Below, one piece after another: positions 3,792 through 16,903 of a stretch of DNA of 25,212 bases (its first letter is position 1; each line of letters begins with the position of its first letter). The stretch is taken from positions 1 through 25,212 of the IMG/VR virus record IMGVR_UViG_3300044993_000360. One strand, written 5' to 3'. Below the pieces are notes generated by a model that did not search any database, was not told the origin of the DNA, and saw only the letters and a program-made list of their open reading frames with translations. This DNA comes from a virus. A program made the translations under genes and the position numbers.

Positions 3792-5825
3792 CTACGCCCC
3801 GGGATTTTTATAGAGGCCGCGCCAGTCGATGGCCTTGGCGCCGAAGTCGAGGCGGCACTTGATCTCGACCCCGTCGACGTCGAAGCCGTTGCGCGTCTCG
3901 ATGTAGGCACCCTGCTGGCCTTCGAGATAGGCGTATTCGATGGTGTCGATCTGGTTCGGGCTCGCGGCCAGATACCAGGCGGTGGCGCTGGCGGCGTCGA
4001 GGCGCGGTTCGCTGATCGGCGAAAGGGTGCGGATCGATTGCGGCACCACCTTGGCGCTGTCGGCCGGGACGAGGTTCTGGGCCACCAGCTGCTCGGCCTT
4101 CAGTTCTAGCGCCGCGGGCACGATCAGGAAGGCGGGGCGGATGTTCAGCACCGTCTTCTTGTCGAGGCCGGTCTGCAGAGCCATCGCTGCCCGGGCCGCG
4201 CCGACGCTCGCCACATCCAGTGCAGCGCCAGTCGCGGCAAGGTTCTTGTGGGTGGCGTGGAACAGCGCATTGCCATCGGCCATCGCCGGGTTGGCGGTGA
4301 TGATGCCCCAGACCACGTCGCTTTCCAGCTGCGCGATGGAGTTGCCGTATATGGCGGGGATCCGGGTGAAGGCATCGAGATCGTCGTTGATCAGCACCTG
4401 CCGGGTGATGGCGACGACCCGGCCATAGGTCTTGACCTTGTAGCTCTCCTTGCTCTCGCCCAGCGTCCCGCGCTTGAACTCGCCGCTTTCGCCCACTTCC
4501 AGAAGCTGCGGCGCCTCGCCCAGCTGGACGCGGTGCATGGACTTGAAGTCGGTGGCCAGCACCTGGCGGCAGAAGAGCGCGAAGGTGCGAGGATAGGCAT
4601 CATAGGCCTGCCGCAGCGTCTTGTTGGTGACGGCTGAGAGGATCTCGGGGAAGTCCGAGGTCGAGTGCAGCGCGCGCGTCGCCACCTCGTCACGCGACAG
4701 GCCACGCGTGTTGACACCGGCATTGCCGAGGCTTTCGCGGGCCAGTTCCAGCAGGGTCATGCCGCGGTACTGGCGCGCGGCATCCTCGAGCGGGAACAGC
4801 GTCGGGCTGTAGCGGTGCAGCAGCGCATTGGCCACGGCGTCGCGGCGGGTGATCCGCTCGTCGCGGCCGCCGAGGGGGACCGAGATATGCGGGAAGGTCC
4901 GGGTCTCGTCCGACTTCGCCGCCAACTGGTCGAGGATGAGGCGGCGAGACTCGTCCACGCTGACGCCGCGCTTGACCAGATCCTCGGCGAAGCTGCGCTC
5001 GAGGTTCAGGCGACCGGTCAGATCATAGATCGTGGACACACGGTCGCGCTCGGCCTCGCGGGCGCGGGTCGCGATGGCCTCGGTATCGGGTGCCGGAGCA
5101 GGTTCCTGCATGCGCGCGGTCGTCGGTTCGGGGTGTGCCGGGGCCGCGACGGGCTGCTGGCGGGTCTCATGGCTGGCGGGGACATCCCCGGCCACGGTGG
5201 TCGTGCTCTCAGGCATGGATGCCTCCTTTTGCATGCGGCTGTCGACGATCTCGACGGGATAGCTGGCCTGATCGGCCGCGCGGACCTGCGCGCGAGGATC
5301 GGCGGGAACGGTCACGAAGCTGACCTCGAGCGGGGTCCAGCGCTCGACGATGCGCTGCTCGACCTCGCCCTTGGCGGCGGGCTCGACCACCTTCACACGC
5401 TCGATGGAATAGCCGACCGAGACGTTGCGGATGATCCCGTCGCTGATCAGGCCGAACATGCGGTCGGCGGCCTGGTCGAGCCCCTCGCGGGGGAAACGGA
5501 TGGTGGCCTTGCCTTCCTTGCCCTCGATCCAGGCGCGTTCGACCACGCCCACTTGCGAATGCGAGGACCAGACGGAATGGCTGTCGAGCGCCGGGGCGCC
5601 GGCATTGAGGCGCGTCAGGTCCACCGCCTTGTCGCTGACTTCGAGGATTTCGTCGAAGGGCACGGATGTGTCCCAGCCGGTCCACCGTCGCCGCCGGACG
5701 GCCGCGCCGGTGGTAAAGACGACGTCGACGGAGCGGGCCTCGGTATTGACGGTGGCGGGCAGGATGGGTGCGCGCCGCAGCTGCATCGGCAGGGCGACCG
5801 GGGCCGCCGTGATCGTGTCGGGCAT
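3792..5825 (-). CDS. Prohead protease/major capsid protein fusion
   Basis: A 677-residue fusion. The first ~190 residues are an HK97-type prohead protease: a strand-rich start, LDSHSVWSSHSQVGVVERAW with the likely catalytic His, and SVGYSIERVKVVE followed by EVSFVTVPADPRAQ with the likely Ser region. A Pro/Ala/Glu-rich linker follows. Residues from about 330 form the major capsid domain (FKRGTLGESKESYKVKTYGR; AFTRIPAIYGNSIAQLESDV; C-terminal EIKCRLDFGAKAIDWRGLYK). The fusion architecture is known in Mu-like and alphaproteobacterial phages, and the protease is expected to release itself from the capsid protein. I chose the ATG at 5825, not the upstream one at 5870, because it follows the portal stop by four bases and has AGAAGGA about eight bases before it. 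Confidence 0.9.
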   Translation of the reverse strand: MPDTITAAPVALPMQLRRAPILPATVNTEARSVDVVFTTGAAVRRRRWTGWDTSVPFDEILEVSDKAVDLTRLNAGAPALDSHSVWSSHSQVGVVERAWIEGKEGKATIRFPREGLDQAADRMFGLISDGIIRNVSVGYSIERVKVVEPAAKGEVEQRIVERWTPLEVSFVTVPADPRAQVRAADQASYPVEIVDSRMQKEASMPESTTTVAGDVPASHETRQQPVAAPAHPEPTTARMQEPAPAPDTEAIATRAREAERDRVSTIYDLTGRLNLERSFAEDLVKRGVSVDESRRLILDQLAAKSDETRTFPHISVPLGGRDERITRRDAVANALLHRYSPTLFPLEDAARQYRGMTLLELARESLGNAGVNTRGLSRDEVATRALHSTSDFPEILSAVTNKTLRQAYDAYPRTFALFCRQVLATDFKSMHRVQLGEAPQLLEVGESGEFKRGTLGESKESYKVKTYGRVVAITRQVLINDDLDAFTRIPAIYGNSIAQLESDVVWGIITANPAMADGNALFHATHKNLAATGAALDVASVGAARAAMALQTGLDKKTVLNIRPAFLIVPAALELKAEQLVAQNLVPADSAKVVPQSIRTLSPISEPRLDAASATAWYLAASPNQIDTIEYAYLEGQQGAYIETRNGFDVDGVEIKCRLDFGAKAIDWRGLYKNPGA

Positions 5826-5829
5826 TGCC

Positions 5830-7341
5830 CTATTCCTTCTCTGGTTCGGATGCGGGTGTGGCCGGGTCACTGGTCGCGTCGCCCGCCTGCGCGCTGCCGG
5901 TCTTGGTGACGCGGCGCGGATCGCTGTCGAGCACGAGGCCGAGGCCGTCGAGCTTGGCGTTGGTCGCGGCGATCTCGGCCAGCACGGCGTCCGGGTTGTG
6001 GCCCTGTCGGGCGATGGCCTGCGCCAGCGTCATGGTGCCGGTCCGGATCGCCAGCAGATCGGCCATCGCGTCCTTGTAGGGATCGACGGCATCGAACTTC
6101 GGCGGCGACCATTCCACCGGCACATCCGGCGTCGGGATCTGCCCCGCTGCCCATGCGGCTTCCGTGAACCAGCGCCAGACGGGGGCGCAGAGCATCGGGA
6201 TGAACAACTGCCACTGCACGGCGTCGATCATGCGCCGGAACTCGACGAGCCCCGCCCGGATGGAGGAATAGTTGACCAAGGACAGGTCCCCGGTCAGCAA
6301 CTCGTAGGGCACCCGGAACCCGGCCGAGATCGTGTGCAGGCTCGCGCGCTTGTATTCGCCGTAGCCGCCCGTCGCCGAAGGCTGGTTGAACCGGATGTCC
6401 TTGCCGCCGCGCGCATAGGCGATCAGCCCGGGCTCGAACTGCTCCACCCGGTTGCCATCCGCATCGACCACGGAGGGCGCGATGCCCTGATGGGATTCAT
6501 CATCGCCGAATACGATGGCGGTGACGCAGGCCTCGGTCTTCTTCCGGACCAGTTCGGCGACCTCGTAGTCGTCGAGATCGCGCAAGCTGCGGATCACCGG
6601 CGCGCCCCAGGGAACGCCGCGCGCCTGCGTGCGCTGCTTCTCGTAGACATGGGCGATCTCGGTCGCCGGGACCGGGCGGCTCTGCAACCCGTTCTGCAAG
6701 GCCCCGTAGGCGTCGCCCGGATGCTCCGCGTGCAGCCAATAGGCCCGGCGCTTGCCGACCGGGTCGAACTCGATCCCCTGAACGAGGCGTCCCGCCCCGA
6801 TGGCGCCGGATTTCGTGGCGTCGAGGAAGTCGGCCTCCAGCACCTGCAGCTGCAGCGGCACCGGCAGGCCGTCGCTCGCCCGCCGCAGTCTGCGGCGCAC
6901 CAGGACCTCGCCCGCCTCGACCATCTCGCGGCAGATCAGCGTCTGCAGGCCGTAGAAGTCGAGCTGACCGTCGGCGTCGCAGTCCGCCGTCCAGCGTTCG
7001 AAGAGCGCATCGACCCTCCGGTCGAGCTTGTCGTCGCCGCTGGCGGCGCGCGGCATGATGCCCGCGCCGATGATGTTGTTGACCAGCACCGCGACAGCCT
7101 TCGCCGCGTGCGGGTTGTTACGCACCAGATCGCGCATCCGGTCGCGCAAGAGCGCCCCGGCCACACCGATCTCGGTGTCGGCCGAGGATCCCGGCGCCCG
7201 CCAGCCGTCCGTCCGTCGCCCTTTTGCCGCCCCGTCATAGCCCCGTGTCAGGGTCTCGAATGCCTGCCGCGCCAGCACACGGCGGGCCGCCATGCGCGGC
7301 GCCACCGATGCGATGGCGTGGTCGAACCAGGTCGCCGACAT
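5830..7341 (-). CDS. Phage portal protein, lambda family
   Basis: A 503-residue protein matching lambda gpB-type portals, the dodecameric ring at the capsid vertex through which DNA is packaged. Family features are visible in order: VRNNPHAAKAVAVLVNNIIG near residues 70-95, FYGLQTLICREMVEAGEVLVRRR around 150-170, EFDPVGKRRAYWLH, then AGFRVPYELLTGDLSLVNYS and the downstream FIPMLCAPVWRWFTEAAWAA. The length is close to lambda gpB. Its start overlaps the gpW-type gene stop by one base. Because the protease is fused to the capsid gene, no separate ClpP-like protease follows, unlike in lambda. Confidence 0.93.
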   Translation of the reverse strand: MSATWFDHAIASVAPRMAARRVLARQAFETLTRGYDGAAKGRRTDGWRAPGSSADTEIGVAGALLRDRMRDLVRNNPHAAKAVAVLVNNIIGAGIMPRAASGDDKLDRRVDALFERWTADCDADGQLDFYGLQTLICREMVEAGEVLVRRRLRRASDGLPVPLQLQVLEADFLDATKSGAIGAGRLVQGIEFDPVGKRRAYWLHAEHPGDAYGALQNGLQSRPVPATEIAHVYEKQRTQARGVPWGAPVIRSLRDLDDYEVAELVRKKTEACVTAIVFGDDESHQGIAPSVVDADGNRVEQFEPGLIAYARGGKDIRFNQPSATGGYGEYKRASLHTISAGFRVPYELLTGDLSLVNYSSIRAGLVEFRRMIDAVQWQLFIPMLCAPVWRWFTEAAWAAGQIPTPDVPVEWSPPKFDAVDPYKDAMADLLAIRTGTMTLAQAIARQGHNPDAVLAEIAATNAKLDGLGLVLDSDPRRVTKTGSAQAGDATSDPATPASEPEKE

Positions 7342-7547
7342 CAGCGATCCCCGCGCGAGAAGCCCGCGAGCCCCGCGACCGGCAGCGGACGCGTGGTCCC
7401 CGCGATGGCGCGCTCGATGGTGCGGATGCGGGCGAGCAGATCTTCGGCCGAGCCGTAGTCCACCGACTTGCCGTCATAGCTGACGCGGGTCGTGCCGCTG
7501 GCATAGGCCCGGCGCAGCGCCGAGAGTTCGGTTTCCGTCCAGTGCAT
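7341..7547 (-). CDS. gpW-type head-tail joining protein
   Basis: A 68-residue protein (MHWTETELSALRRAYASGTT) with the gpW fold pattern: helix 1 (ELSALRRAYASG), a short beta hairpin (RVSYDGKSVDYGS) and helix 2 (AEDLLARIRTIERAIAG). The length equals that of lambda gpW. It lies between the large terminase and portal genes, exactly where gpW is found in lambda-like phages, and seals the portal or joins head to tail. The 82 bp between it and the terminase stop hold copy A of the hairpin repeat. Confidence 0.85.
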   Translation of the reverse strand: MHWTETELSALRRAYASGTTRVSYDGKSVDYGSAEDLLARIRTIERAIAGTTRPLPVAGLAGFSRGDR

Positions 7548-7560
7548 GCCCTTCGCTCCC

Positions 7561-7628
7561 GCTCAGTGCGTTCGTTCCCTCACGAGGCTCCACTGGAGCC
7601 TCGCATCCGCTGCGCGGACCGGTCCTCA
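7561..7628. repeat. Hairpin repeat, copy A (downstream of terL)
   Basis: A 68 bp element aligning with 9595-9664 over its whole length, with conserved ends (GCTC at one end, CCGGTCCTCA at the other). Its centre is a perfect inverted repeat, 10 bp arms CGAGGCTCCA (7583-7592) and TGGAGCCTCG (7594-7603) around one base. Reading on the minus strand it begins immediately after the large terminase stop codon. Arm sequences differ from those of copy B but stay self-complementary. Confidence 0.85.
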
Positions 7629-7629
7629 C

Positions 7630-9717
7630 TCAGAACCATCCTCCGCGCCGCCCGAGCCAGTCGGAGCGGCGCTTGCCCTGCGGGGCCTGTCCCGGCCGGT
7701 TGATCTGCCCGGCGGGATCGGTGTCGGTGGGGGCGGCCCCGAGCTGATCCTCGAGGTCGCGCCATTTCGCCTCAGACCAGCGGTCCGCGCCTGCGATCCA
7801 GGCGGCGGCGCGCGCGTAGACCCGGCAGTCCAGCGCCTCGTTACGCTCGCGCAGCTTCTGCCATTCCAGCCGGGCGAAGCCGCGCTTCGTTCGCACCGTC
7901 ACCAGCTGCTCGGCGACGAACTGCTTCAGCCATTCGTTCTCGACCCAATGCGGCAGATGCACCGAGCCGGGCGGGAAAGCCGCGCCCTCTGCGCGTTCCT
8001 CGGTCGTGGGCCTCTCTAGCCGCAGGAAGCGGTAGGTCTCGGCCTTGAAGGTCGAGACCGCCACGGTCCAGAGCCGCGCCCCGCGCCGCAGGCGTTTGCC
8101 ACCCTCGGTCGCATCGACAAACGTGGGCCCCGAGACCGGGCTCGAGCGATTGAACCCCTCGACGCCCTTGACCGGCGACACCTGCGCGAAGCCTTGCGCC
8201 CGCGACCAGGAATAGACCGCCGGGGCCTCGTAGCCGGTGTCGATGGCCAGCCGCGCGATCCGCAGATGCGCGCCGCGTTCGTGGGGCCAGGACCGGTCCA
8301 GCAGCGCCGTCAGTTCCGACCAGGCATCATGCCGTTCGGGTCCGCCCTCGATCACGACATGATCGACGAGCCAGCTTTCCAGCCCGCGGCCCCAGGCCCA
8401 GACATCGACCTCGATCCGGTCCTTCTGGACGTCGGCACCGGCGGTCAGGAACAGCCCGCCAGCGGGCACCGTGCCGGAGGTCCAGCGCTCGCGGCGATCG
8501 TAAAGCCGCTGCCAGTCGGGGGCTTCTCCCGTCTCGACCCAGGTCTCGCCGAGGATGGTGTTGCGGAACGCCTTGATCGCCTCGTCCGAGCCCTGCGCCG
8601 CGTCCCATGCCCGCACGATCCGCTCCCAGCTCAGCCAGCCGATCGGCGAGTAGAGCGCCGAGAGGTGATACCCGACCGTGGTCGGATCGGCGGCCGTGGC
8701 GGTCGCCCGCCATTCGCCGCCCTCCAGCATCGCCGTCTTGTGGTGCTCTGCGATGGGCGTCTCGCAGCCCTCGCAATGGTAGGCGGCGGTCTCCGGCCTT
8801 CCCTTGTCCCAGCGCAGCCGGTCGAACTTCAGCCATTGCATCGTGCCGCAATGCGGGCACGGCACGAAGAACCGGCGCTGATCGCTGGCCTCGTATTCCC
8901 GTTCGATCCGGCTCAGCCCCCGGATGGTGGGCGTCGAGACCAGGAACACCTTGCGCCGGTGCGCGAAGGTCAGCGACCGAGCTTCGGCCAGCGTAACCGG
9001 ATCGCCTTCCTCGTCAGCGGACGCCGGATAGGCGTCGACCTCGTCGAGGAAGATGTAACGCGCCGGGGTCGAGCGCAGCCCGACCGCCGAGTTGGCGCCG
9101 GTCATTATCAGGATGCCGCCCGCGAATTCCTTCGACAGCATCGTGTTGCCCGCGTCCCGCGACCGGGCAGGTTTGACCCGCTCCCGCAGCTCCGGGCTCT
9201 CGTCGATCAGCGGGTCGATCCGCTGGCGCGAGTTGCGCTTGGCCAGTTCGACCGTCGGCTGGACCGCCAGCATAGGGCCCGGCGCCTGGTGGATCGCGAA
9301 CCCGATCCAGTTGTTGCCCGCCTCGGTCGCACCGACCTGCGCGGCCTTCATGAACACGATGCGCTGCATCACGTCGCCGGGCGACAGCCGGTCCATGATC
9401 TCGCGCATGTAGGGCGTGCGTGCCGTGCGATACCGCCCGGGCTCGGCCGAGGCGCGGCCCGACAGCATCCGGTGCCGGTCCGCCCATTGCGAGACCGTCA
9501 GATCCGGGTCTGGCGTCAGCCCCGCGCCCCAGGTGCGCAGGATTTCTGCCGCGCCGTCGAAAGCTGTCAGGCCATCGTCCGGCCCTGCGCTTGCGCTCCG
9601 GGCATTCGTCCCTCGCAAGGGTCCACTGGACCCTTGCGTTTCGCTGGCGCGAAACCGGTCCTCATCACCGGAAGTCGGGCCGGACCTCGGCAAGTTCGTC
9701 GAGGTGGGCGCGTACAT
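7630..9717 (-). CDS. terL: Phage terminase large subunit, GpA family
   Basis: About 695 residues; the ATPase-nuclease motor that packages phage DNA. From the ATG at 9717: an atypical Walker A, KAAQVGATE (about 124-132), as in lambda gpA; Walker B, IFLDEVD (222-228); a zinc-ribbon-like set Cys287, Cys290, Cys315, Cys318 (CPHC and CEGC); and a C-terminal nuclease region with ADVQKDRIEVDVWAWG and the later LAIDTGYEA. The start is uncertain. The frame is open to a TTG at 9726, and both candidate starts lie inside the small terminase gene. The first recognisable family sequence (FDGAAEILRTWGAGL) begins only near residue 53. In between, about 25 residues are encoded by repeat copy B. A TTG inside the repeat (9616-9618) is another possible start. 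Confidence 0.92.
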   Translation of the reverse strand: MYAPTSTNLPRSGPTSGDEDRFRASETQGSSGPLRGTNARSASAGPDDGLTAFDGAAEILRTWGAGLTPDPDLTVSQWADRHRMLSGRASAEPGRYRTARTPYMREIMDRLSPGDVMQRIVFMKAAQVGATEAGNNWIGFAIHQAPGPMLAVQPTVELAKRNSRQRIDPLIDESPELRERVKPARSRDAGNTMLSKEFAGGILIMTGANSAVGLRSTPARYIFLDEVDAYPASADEEGDPVTLAEARSLTFAHRRKVFLVSTPTIRGLSRIEREYEASDQRRFFVPCPHCGTMQWLKFDRLRWDKGRPETAAYHCEGCETPIAEHHKTAMLEGGEWRATATAADPTTVGYHLSALYSPIGWLSWERIVRAWDAAQGSDEAIKAFRNTILGETWVETGEAPDWQRLYDRRERWTSGTVPAGGLFLTAGADVQKDRIEVDVWAWGRGLESWLVDHVVIEGGPERHDAWSELTALLDRSWPHERGAHLRIARLAIDTGYEAPAVYSWSRAQGFAQVSPVKGVEGFNRSSPVSGPTFVDATEGGKRLRRGARLWTVAVSTFKAETYRFLRLERPTTEERAEGAAFPPGSVHLPHWVENEWLKQFVAEQLVTVRTKRGFARLEWQKLRERNEALDCRVYARAAAWIAGADRWSEAKWRDLEDQLGAAPTDTDPAGQINRPGQAPQGKRRSDWLGRRGGWF
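9595..9664. repeat. Hairpin repeat, copy B (upstream of terL)
   Basis: A 70 bp element homologous to 7561-7628, with 12 bp arms CGCAAGGGTCCA (9614-9625) and TGGACCCTTGCG (9627-9638) around one base. On the minus strand it starts directly after the small terminase stop codon at 9665. It is read through in frame by the large terminase frame, giving residues such as RASETQGSSGPLRGTNARSA. Stem changes relative to copy A are compensatory (GAGGCTCCA against AAGGGTCCA, each matched on the other arm). Confidence 0.85.
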
Positions 9718-10267
9718 GTTTCTCAAGGACCTTCTGCATCGCGGCTGGCTCGACGCCCAGATCGGCCGCCATCAGCGCAGACGAGCGCGCAGGCCAGTTC
9801 ACCCATGCATCCCGAACTTCCCGCGCCAGGCGGAACACAAGCGACAGGGCGCGGGCCCGCTCGATCAGTTCCCCCTTCAGCTTCTGGAGCCGGATGCGAC
9901 GCTCCTGCGCCTTCAGCACCTCGTTTGCCGTCTTCGCCTGCAGGAACGTCATGGCCCCGCTGGCCACGGGGGCCGCGAGACCCTGTTCGCGCAAGGTGTC
10001 GCCGACCGCCGTGACGGCCGCCTCGGGGACCGGCTTCATGATCGGCGCCGGTGGCTTGATGACACGCGAATGCGCGCGCCTGTCTTCCGTGCCCGCGCTC
10101 CGCTCGCCCCGCACCTTCGACGGGTCTGTCATCTCGGCCCGGCGCGCATCCGAGGCCTCCGCGTCGATGGAACCGTCGGGGAACAGGACCAATCGCTCGG
10201 CCGTCTTCGCCTTCTGGATCGCGCCCCGCGACAGGCCGACATGCGCGGCGTATTGGCGCTCGCTCAT
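9665..10267 (-). CDS. terS: Phage terminase small subunit
   Basis: About 200 residues. The N-terminus (MSERQYAAHVGLSRGAIQKA) is a helix-turn-helix of the gpNu1/small terminase type, followed by RLVLFPDGSIDAEASDARRA, a stretch characteristic of this family, which recognises the packaging site and feeds DNA to the large subunit. A Pro-rich linker and a long helix (ANEVLKAQERRIRLQKLKGELIE) for oligomerisation follow. An ATG three codons upstream (10276) is equally possible; neither has a strong ribosome binding site. The stop codon abuts repeat copy B. Confidence 0.85.
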   Translation of the reverse strand: MSERQYAAHVGLSRGAIQKAKTAERLVLFPDGSIDAEASDARRAEMTDPSKVRGERSAGTEDRRAHSRVIKPPAPIMKPVPEAAVTAVGDTLREQGLAAPVASGAMTFLQAKTANEVLKAQERRIRLQKLKGELIERARALSLVFRLAREVRDAWVNWPARSSALMAADLGVEPAAMQKVLEKHVRAHLDELAEVRPDFR

Positions 10268-10464
10268 GCCCCGCATCGCACATCCGGAAAATAGATCAGG
10301 ATCATCTGCTTGTCCGCGTTGATGTGTGCCAACGACAGAGCGAAGCTGTGCCTCGACAGGACGATGCAACTCACCCCCGGCGGTGCCTGGAACCCGCGCA
10401 GACCGCGGGCTCGGGGTCGTAGAAGGGACGCGATGGTCGCGGCCTGACGACGGAGACGACCCCC
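10268..10464. promoter_or_regulatory. Divergent intergenic region
   Basis: These 197 bp separate the minus-strand packaging operon from the plus-strand pair at 10465-11238, so they should hold promoters for both directions. I cannot point to a convincing -35/-10 pair. A short inverted repeat (CCCGCG and CGCGGG, five bases apart, near 10392-10410) is the only structure I see. A ribosome binding site (GGAG) sits before the ATG at 10465. Confidence 0.4.
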
Positions 10465-10662
10465 ATGACACTTTTGCACTCCCAACCCTGCCTCGTGCTC
10501 ACCGACCGTGGCGGAGAGATCGGCTGGCTTGGTCAGTTCCCTGACGTTGCCACCGGCCAAGCCGCCATGGCACACTGGCTGAAAGCGCCGGATCGCGACC
10601 CCGAGGACGCAGCCTTCATCCTTCCGATCCTCGGCTTCGGCCGCGCCGCAATGGAGGGATGA
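10465..10662 (+). CDS. Small conserved-looking hypothetical protein
   Basis: A 65-residue protein (MTLLHSQPCLVLTDRGGEIG) that I do not recognise as a named domain. It has a GGAG ribosome binding site upstream, gene-like codon use and a coherent start, and is followed three bases later by the DUF3489 gene behind a strong GGAGGG site that overlaps its end. The pair is therefore a two-gene operon on the plus strand. The region with AAMAHWLKAPDRDPEDAAF is likely helical. There is no membrane segment or known catalytic motif. Confidence 0.65.
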   Translation: MTLLHSQPCLVLTDRGGEIGWLGQFPDVATGQAAMAHWLKAPDRDPEDAAFILPILGFGRAAMEG

Positions 10663-10665
10663 ACC

Positions 10666-11238
10666 ATGACCCAGCTTTCCGACACCCAAGCCCTGATCTT
10701 GAGCGCCGCCGCCCAGCGGCCCGAGCGCATCGCCCTGCCGCTGCCCGAAAGCCTGCGCGGCGGAGCCGCCGCCAAGGTGGTCGGCGCTATGCTGGCCAAG
10801 GGCCTCCTTCAGGAGGTCGATGCCAACCTGCGCAAGGGCGAACCCGTGTGGCGCCAGACCGGCGATGGCCACGGCACCACGCTGGTCGCCACCGATGCAG
10901 GGCTCGCCGCCATCGGCATCGAGCCCGAGGACGCGAACCGCGCGCCTGCGGGCGCGACGGACGCGCCGACCGACGAGCCCGCGCCGGTACCCCCCACCGA
11001 ACCAGAGGCTGCGCCCAAGGCGCGCACGCCGCGCGAGGGCACCAAGCAGGCCACGCTGATCGCCATGCTGCGCGCGCCGGACGGCGCGACCATCGAGGAG
11101 GTCATGGCTGCGACGGGCTGGCAGTCGCACACGGTGCGCGGCGCGATGGCCGGGGCGCTGAAGAAGAAACTCGGGCTCGAGGTGACCTCGGAGAAGGTCG
11201 AGAACCGGGGGCGCGTGTACAAGCTCCCCGCCGCCTGA
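10666..11238 (+). CDS. DUF3489 domain protein, winged-helix-like
   Basis: A 190-residue protein. The N-terminal half (MTQLSDTQALILSAAAQRPE; GAAAKVVGAMLAKGLLQEV) and the C-terminal half (GTKQATLIAMLRAPDGATIE; MAATGWQSHTVRGAMAGALK; KKKLGLEVTSEKVENRGRVY) both look like winged-helix DNA-binding units, joined by an acidic Pro/Ala linker (about residues 88-125). The C-terminal unit matches the DUF3489 family, common in alphaproteobacterial phages and islands. A role in transcription or DNA binding is inference. A strong ribosome binding site (GGAGGG) precedes the ATG. Confidence 0.85.
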   Translation: MTQLSDTQALILSAAAQRPERIALPLPESLRGGAAAKVVGAMLAKGLLQEVDANLRKGEPVWRQTGDGHGTTLVATDAGLAAIGIEPEDANRAPAGATDAPTDEPAPVPPTEPEAAPKARTPREGTKQATLIAMLRAPDGATIEEVMAATGWQSHTVRGAMAGALKKKLGLEVTSEKVENRGRVYKLPAA

Positions 11239-15566: not shown

Positions 15567-16903
15567 GCCTCGGTCTCCTCTTCTGGTTGGGGGTGATGGG
15601 CGCGGCGCAGGGCGGCGGGCTTTGCGGCGTCCAGCCGGGCCGACAGCGCATCGAGGGCAGCGCGGCGCGCGGCGCGCACGGCCTGCATGCTTGCGGTCAG
15701 GCGGGATGTGAGGGTGTCGAGGTGCGCGGCGCAGGCAGGATCGGGCGGGCCAGCGTCCGCAACGTGGTCTCGCCGCATCTCGAAACTGGCAAGCGGCCCG
15801 AGGCGGTTGGTGAGCCAGGCTTCCGGATCGGGAATGCGGGAGAGATCGACGCGGGCGGACCGGGGGCGATGGCCGGATCCTTCGGGGCGATAGGTCACCT
15901 CCGCCGAGGAGTGTGACATTTGGCTATTATAGAGATCCCTATAATAGCAGTTTGTCACATTCCTCGACCGATCCTGCCGGGCTGCGGCGGCCGAGGACCA
16001 GAGCTCCGGGAAACAGGCGGCCATGTCGGCGGCGTTCTCGAGGACGATGCCGGTGAGCGCCATCAGGTCGCGCCGGGTCGGGCGGAGATCGGACCAAGGC
16101 ACCAGCGCGTCGACGGTGACGGGCAGGACCACGTCGGTGAGCAGGTCGATCTCGAGTGGCGTGGCGGCGGTGCGGTTGACGCCGCGACCGCGACCGATCG
16201 CCTGGATCAGCTCGCCTTCGCAGATGCTCCAGCGCACGGCCTCGGCGACAGGATCGGCGTGTTCCTCCATCGCGAGCGGGGCGCTCCGGTCGCCAGTAAG
16301 CCGGATACGGCGTTCGATCATCGGATACCACCAGCCCGCGTCCTGCAGGTTGGGCGCAGGCACGCGGCCGGTCAGCGCCGTGGCGATCAGTTCGACCGTC
16401 CGCGGCGCGGGCAGCGTGCGGCCGAGCACGACCATGGCGCCGATCCCGCCCCAGCGGTCGAGCCCGCTCAGCGCGTTGAAATGCACCGCCTCGACCCGCG
16501 GCGGCAGGCCGGCCGACCTGAGCGCATCGATGGCGGCCTTCTGGCCCACCACCAGGAGATCGATGGCCTGGCCGGGGCGATGGCACTGGCGGGCCCGAAG
16601 GTCGATCCACGCGCGGAGGTCGCGCAGGCGGGTCGCGGCGGCCTTGTGTTCGCGCTCGGGCGCATCGGCCGAGGGCGTCAGCGCGCGGGCCGAGGTCGGG
16701 CTGTCGGTCACCTGGCAGACGCGGACATGGGGCTGGCGCGCGGCGACGGGCGTGCCGATGTCGATCCGCGGCAGGTAGGTCTGCACGAGTTCGGGCCGCA
16801 GCGTCGCGTCGAGATGCAGGATCGGCGCCTGGGCCGCCCAGCCGGTCCGCATCGGGCTGCGCCAGCGCAGGCGGAGCGCGCGGACCGAACCCCCCTCGGT
16901 CAT
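15563..16903 (-). CDS. SF2 helicase C-terminal part of split primase-helicase
   Basis: A 446-residue segment that looks like the second RecA-like domain of the helicase whose first domain lies in the upstream frame. Visible elements are LHLDATLRPELVQ (29-41), HFNALSGLDRWGGIGAMVVL (141-160) and a motif VI-like QAIGRGRGVNR with arginine-finger candidates (234-244). The C-terminal 130 residues are helical and Ala/Arg-rich. The first ATG is at 16903, but the frame is open further back. The sequence just above it reads as natural protein (RCATLWLILAEALENGHDAA) up to the run of seven C on this strand (16988-16994). Separate translation or fusion by frameshift are both possible. A 62 bp palindrome lies inside the gene at 15905-15966. 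Confidence 0.75.
   Translation of the reverse strand: MTEGGSVRALRLRWRSPMRTGWAAQAPILHLDATLRPELVQTYLPRIDIGTPVAARQPHVRVCQVTDSPTSARALTPSADAPEREHKAAATRLRDLRAWIDLRARQCHRPGQAIDLLVVGQKAAIDALRSAGLPPRVEAVHFNALSGLDRWGGIGAMVVLGRTLPAPRTVELIATALTGRVPAPNLQDAGWWYPMIERRIRLTGDRSAPLAMEEHADPVAEAVRWSICEGELIQAIGRGRGVNRTAATPLEIDLLTDVVLPVTVDALVPWSDLRPTRRDLMALTGIVLENAADMAACFPELWSSAAAARQDRSRNVTNCYYRDLYNSQMSHSSAEVTYRPEGSGHRPRSARVDLSRIPDPEAWLTNRLGPLASFEMRRDHVADAGPPDPACAAHLDTLTSRLTASMQAVRAARRAALDALSARLDAAKPAALRRAHHPQPEEETEA
15905..15966. repeat. 62 bp AT-rich palindrome inside helicase gene
   Basis: Arms of 28 bp (15905-15932 and 15939-15966) match at 23 of 28 positions, including perfect blocks CGAGGA, TGTGACA and GCTATTATAG. 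The six-base centre contains GATC. It is strikingly AT-rich in a GC-rich gene. On the minus strand it is translated in frame as part of RNVTNCYYRDLYNSQMSHSS (helicase residues about 314-333). Confidence 0.9.

Follow-up and report, generated by a model that had tools for sequence, protein, structure and literature searches.

Two copies of a short, hairpin-forming repeat stand on either side of the large terminase gene of this prophage. What is the repeat, and does it belong to the terminase or has it come from elsewhere? The stretch of DNA analysed (the window) is an entire virus record of 25,212 bases. Its minus strand carries a lambda-like head module, consisting of terS, terL, a head-tail adaptor gene, a portal gene and a protease-capsid gene. 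The terminase small subunit gene terS lies at 9665-10471 on the minus strand (PHROG 57, E 4.5e-30). It is followed on the same strand by terL (7630-9717), which encodes a lambda gpA-type terminase large subunit (Pfam GpA_ATPase, E 5.7e-103; GpA_nuclease, E 4.1e-97); its start is probably the ATG at 9717, within terS. The head-tail adaptor gene (7341-7547, minus strand; PHROG 2545, E 1.9e-20) begins directly after the second copy of the repeat.

Both copies are on the minus strand. Copy B spans 9582-9665 (84 nt; 5' ATGAGGACCG... ...GCAGGGC 3') and copy A spans 7548-7629 (82 nt; 5' GTGAGGACCG... ...GAAGGGC 3'). They score 107.5 and 83.9 bits, respectively, with covariance model R1, each being a member of its training set. 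As an earlier note on this DNA had claimed, two repeats exist and align end to end; A and B are identical at 60 of 81 aligned positions in a structure-guided alignment. The note had the location and strand right, but its extents (7561-7628 and 9595-9664) are too short. By the family model about 13 bases are missing at the 3' end, because a third hairpin (in copy B, GCCC-GGAGCGCAAGCGCA-GGGC) is part of the unit. The note also placed the start of each copy right after a stop codon. This holds for A, which starts at the first base past the terL TGA, whereas B overlaps the final base of the terS TGA.

Folding and pair counts define three hairpins in copy B, all on the minus strand: H1 (9638-9655; GTTTCGC-GCCA-GCGAAAC, 7 pairs), H2 (9615-9637; a 10-pair stem, GCAAGGGTCC/GGACCCTTGC, with the loop AGT) and H3 (9582-9602; GCCC...GGGC with an inner GC/GC). 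The central stem of copy A is GCGAGGCTCC/GGAGCCTCGT; it differs in sequence from that of B and the pairing is kept, as had been noticed. Copy B folds far better than dinucleotide-shuffled sequence (z = -3.7); the fold of copy A, taken singly, is within chance (z = -0.9). Copy A fills the interval from the terL stop codon to the start of the head-tail adaptor gene, whose ATG its 3' AAGGGC abuts. A scan of 7300-9900 for intrinsic terminators (a GC hairpin followed by a T run) found none in either copy, and the sole terminator-like site is outside the elements.

Copy B also lies within a predicted coding sequence. The terL frame was correctly said to read through it; the insert is exactly 28 residues, not about 25, when compared with relatives that have an empty site. 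TerL is longer by these 28 residues in every carrier compared (57 versus 29 residues up to FDGA), and N-terminal comparison places copy B at about residues 18-46. Its reading frame is EDRFR...SSG...GTNAR. Across 110 family copies frame 3 is open in 71, which is often and not always; survival in frame within TerL thus requires no special coding design. For annotation, this N-terminal insert of TerL should not be taken for a protein domain.

The sequence around both junctions was surveyed in 80 close TerL relatives from viral contigs. Copy B was found in L003, L008 and L060, and copy A in L006, L018, L030, L043 and L079. In almost all remaining relatives whose contigs extend across the junctions, the sequence continues without interruption and the sites are empty. 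In L014, for example, site B reads GGTGATGATGATGGCCTG; the filled version has 84 extra bases. Copies also occur alongside more divergent proteins, with A next to a TerL that is 79% identical (L113) and B next to TerLs that are 73-78% identical (L109, L120 and L128). On the terL tree, the minimum number of state changes is at least 7 for B and at least 16 for A; these changes describe patchiness and are not a count of insertions, as gains, losses or recombination could each produce them. Directly after terL, site A carries a different short hairpin in L008, L032, L062 and L063 (GAGGGCCAGCGGCCCGACAGGG in L032, variants elsewhere), so the junction takes more than one kind of insert. In the Paracoccus loci L123 and L134, TerL similarity ends at residue 352 and the second half was not found in the locus, which suggests a truncated prophage.

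A search with an exact DNA pattern returned prophage copies and two unexpected ones, L121 and L122. The first is an in-frame insert within a DUF3489 gene; the second is in an alphaproteobacterial MAG. The L121 copy (4744-4823, minus strand) apparently does without the third hairpin, and its DUF3489 host gene is homologous to window positions 10666-11238. The exact pattern gave the impression of an almost phage-only element, which was overturned by covariance model matches in chromosomes. Model R1 has about 36 matches in the MAG (genome G005); Palleronia rufa has 14 and the other genomes 1-6 each. A further model, R2, matches 7 of 289 genomes in a class sample and, within the family holding Paracoccus aeridis, 75 of the 199 genomes sampled. 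In another alphaproteobacterial group, searched as two sets of relatives that share most of their genomes, 12 of 41 genomes per set have matches, most of them with 5-38 copies. These genome counts are lower bounds, as the filters were strict. Some of the copies went into the training of both models, whose scores for them are not independent; the scores of copies in genomes outside the training set are. Rather than forming a pair specific to the terminase, copies A and B belong to a single family that is dispersed through many Alphaproteobacteria and conserved in structure. The opposite picture, in which both would be ancestral, unstructured sequence with unpaired stems and no other copies, was tested and is not what was found.

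Several copies compared with Rfam at gathering and permissive thresholds matched no family, and no description of the family was found in the open-access literature (subscription journals lie outside that search). Tandem, partly overlapping short variants, mostly without H1, occur at L190 in Palleronia rufa and also at L192, L193 and L195. In genome G312 the element directly follows a second repeated sequence, TCCTCACCCTGAGCnTGTCGAAGG, in two places (L263 and L264).

The family fold is a three-way junction, made of a closing helix (P0) and the hairpins H1 and H2, followed by H3. From the 5' end, the element consists of a GTGA tag, P0 (five pairs, often with tandem G.A), H1 and H2, GAACGC, H3 and commonly CGG; unit length is about 65-95 nt. 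In a structural alignment of 40 copies, with 28 pairs in five helices, two-sided changes are seen in 25 of the 28 pairs and 90.4% of cells pair. The covariation score is 0.470, compared to 0.131 +/- 0.010 for shuffles, which ignore relatedness; slid partners, which preserve it, score no higher than 0.093. All five P0 pairs covary, the two middle ones being often A.G/G.A; this is a fair test of the fold because P0 was absent from the model used for alignment. The unpaired GAAC and the loop motifs are conserved. Over 110 copies the 5' end is G (94%), T (85%), G (94%), A (91%), G (90%). The consensus ends are GG|GTGAG at the 5' side and GGGC then CGG at the 3' side.

The position of 110 copies, almost all of them non-phage, was surveyed relative to genes that a simple script had called from codon usage, an approximate method and not a published gene finder. 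The upstream gene is on the same strand in 95 of the 102 copies with a callable upstream neighbour and on the opposite strand in 7. Thirty copies begin exactly 4 nt before the gene end, where the GTGA tag provides the TGA stop codon; 43 start within -4 to +3 of the gene end. Downstream neighbours are convergent in 63 of 81 cases, and proteins ending at elements look full length. Genes beside chromosomal copies include what we take, from C-termini and not from a family search, to be asd, lepA (LepA), ligA (LigA) and fumarase. Among asd orthologues, the element is exactly at the stop codon in 3 of 30 fetched genomes; all three filled genes end GGG-TGA, whereas 22 of the 27 empty ones end GGC. 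The first G may be brought by the element itself; alternatively, GGGTGA sites may be favoured. Old inheritance followed by loss could explain why the element recurs at asd. Insertion preference and selection can each give the positional bias seen in the survey, and both fit.

Copies A and B probably belong to a family of short dispersed palindromic elements of Alphaproteobacteria, here provisionally called 'GTGA-tagged', which would work like REP/RPE-type elements and spread by stop-codon insertion. The earlier suggestion of mobile palindromic elements is supported by the copies in other prophages and in host chromosomes, by the empty sites in close relatives and by the in-frame insertion. From sequence comparison, we infer mobility by insertion. 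The unit would insert in a fixed orientation at or beside stop codons, a process which fits the fixed orientation, the RTGA start and the site polymorphism; some enzyme would mobilise it in trans. An insertion at the terS stop codon would have placed B within the overlapping terL frame, where it may be tolerated because 84 nt is 28 codons, the frame has no stop and the site is located before the conserved ATPase domain. Insertion of A after the terL stop codon would have left terL intact and given the following gene a Shine-Dalgarno-like motif, AAGGG, ahead of its ATG. Within a host mRNA, the fold may hinder exonucleases acting from the 3' end or slow ribosomes as they terminate, as is reported for REPs close to stop codons in E. 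coli. No recent transposition is seen among the sites compared; empty and filled sites have diverged and the exact ends are ambiguous.

One rival holds that the unit is chiefly a functional 3'-UTR RNA (an mRNA stabiliser, terminator partner or translation-termination modulator) that selection keeps at gene ends and that spreads incidentally. The 95:7 sense orientation, the coincidence with stop codons and the convergent neighbours would all follow, as would the covarying fold with its conserved GAAC and loop motifs. However, orthologous sites are occupied patchily (in 3 of 30 genomes for asd, and in a minority of relatives for the terL junctions), most sampled genomes do not have the element and neither copy has a T-run terminator; we consider this rival unlikely as the main explanation. 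It should be noted that such a role and mobility are compatible, not exclusive. The mRNA-processing or stability signal proposed in the earlier note is possible, given the sense orientation at gene 3' ends and the covarying fold. The position of the copies makes a role at mRNA 3' ends or in termination plausible, and so does the precedent of E. coli, in which REPs no more than 15 nt from a stop codon stall ribosomes (PMC12306157).

Among known systems, GTAG REPs are the best functional parallel to the GTGA-tagged family. They are tagged, are found near gene ends and often provide TAG stops, and REPs are also known inside ORFs (PMC3733652). Like GTAG REPs and REPINs, the GTGA family consists of short palindromic units with a tetranucleotide tag, placed at gene 3' ends and convergent or unidirectional junctions, and the tag often gives the stop codon (TGA here, TAG in GTAG REPs). 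Unlike them, it has the tag GTGA over 110 copies, it folds into three hairpins and a junction helix and not one 20-40 bp palindrome, and most carriers have no RAYT (Y1). CGTC REPs (which include RPE-4, RPE-6 and dRS3) are centred on Alphaproteobacteria, have no dedicated transposase and are in some cases found in ORFs (PMC3733652); the GTGA family shares this host range, the lack of a transposase and the presence of some copies in ORFs. In contrast to their description in that paper, it lacks the CGTC tag, a single stem of 8-9 bp with a 4-5 nt loop, and the CCA tail. Nor are its copies predominantly head-to-head dimers, as those of CGTC REPs are. The P0 core GGAGC...GCGAC is, as we see it, reminiscent of the CGTC REP stem, and is a lead only.

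Rickettsia palindromic elements (RPE) are similar in being palindromic inserts in frame, about 28 residues being added to a conserved protein (TerL in this case); the L121 copy is likewise in frame, within the DUF3489 gene. This likeness is one of insertion behaviour. Most GTGA-family copies, by contrast, are extragenic at stop codons, and the family is present in a phage terminase and in other lineages. On the best reading, the GTGA family is comparable with GTAG REPs and RPEs and a member of neither; REP tags and stem sizes were tested and differ, and the RPE comparison covered insertion behaviour. If the GTGA-tagged reading is right, it would add a tagged palindromic family, with a fold more elaborate than classic REPs, where REP-like DNA is thinly described. 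Phages would be shown to carry such elements, and TerL, a conserved motor protein of phages, would be a clear case of a protein that has absorbed one. How CGTC-type palindromes spread would also become testable, through a family that is tied to stop codons and has no obvious transposase.

HEARO (IscB-associated) RNA is likewise a structured mobile RNA/DNA starting beside RTGA, which is its target, and is much longer than the GTGA-family unit. The unit could be a miniature derivative of an IS200/IS605 or ISC (IscB/HEARO) element, moved by a Y1 transposase that targets RTGA. The RTGA at the 5' end, the fixed orientation, the subterminal hairpins and the lack of a visible target duplication are in keeping with this origin. 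Against it, permissive scans of several copies gave no match to HEARO or other Rfam models, and IscB matches all fall below the curated cut-off. No mobilising enzyme was found among 18 carriers: 15 are without a Y1 transposase (PF01797), and in the other 3 it does not have elements flanking both sides. The enzyme could have been lost later or could be missing from draft assemblies; even so, we regard this origin as doubtful. In genome G312 a single RAYT-like gene stands by itself, at a distance of about 1 kb from an element. There is also a small chance that the family represents a new class of structured mobile nucleic acid, which would insert in one orientation exactly at stop codons, bring its own TGA, use no Y1 enzyme, possibly pass through an RNA- or translation-linked intermediate, and be carried by phages between alphaproteobacterial hosts.

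Phage packaging (cos/pac) or terminase-specific structures, also raised in the earlier note, are a very improbable explanation: the copies do bracket terL next to terS, a region where such sites can lie, but most close relatives have neither copy, and the family is mainly chromosomal, with most copies outside phage genes and adjoining unrelated ones such as asd, lepA and ligA. Integron sites of the attC type, which also follow stop codons, were considered; GTTRRRY/RYYYAAC ends were not seen. Elsewhere in the window, 15900-15971 contains an adjacent imperfect 36-nt inverted repeat, which is 78% complementary and A+T-rich for the window.
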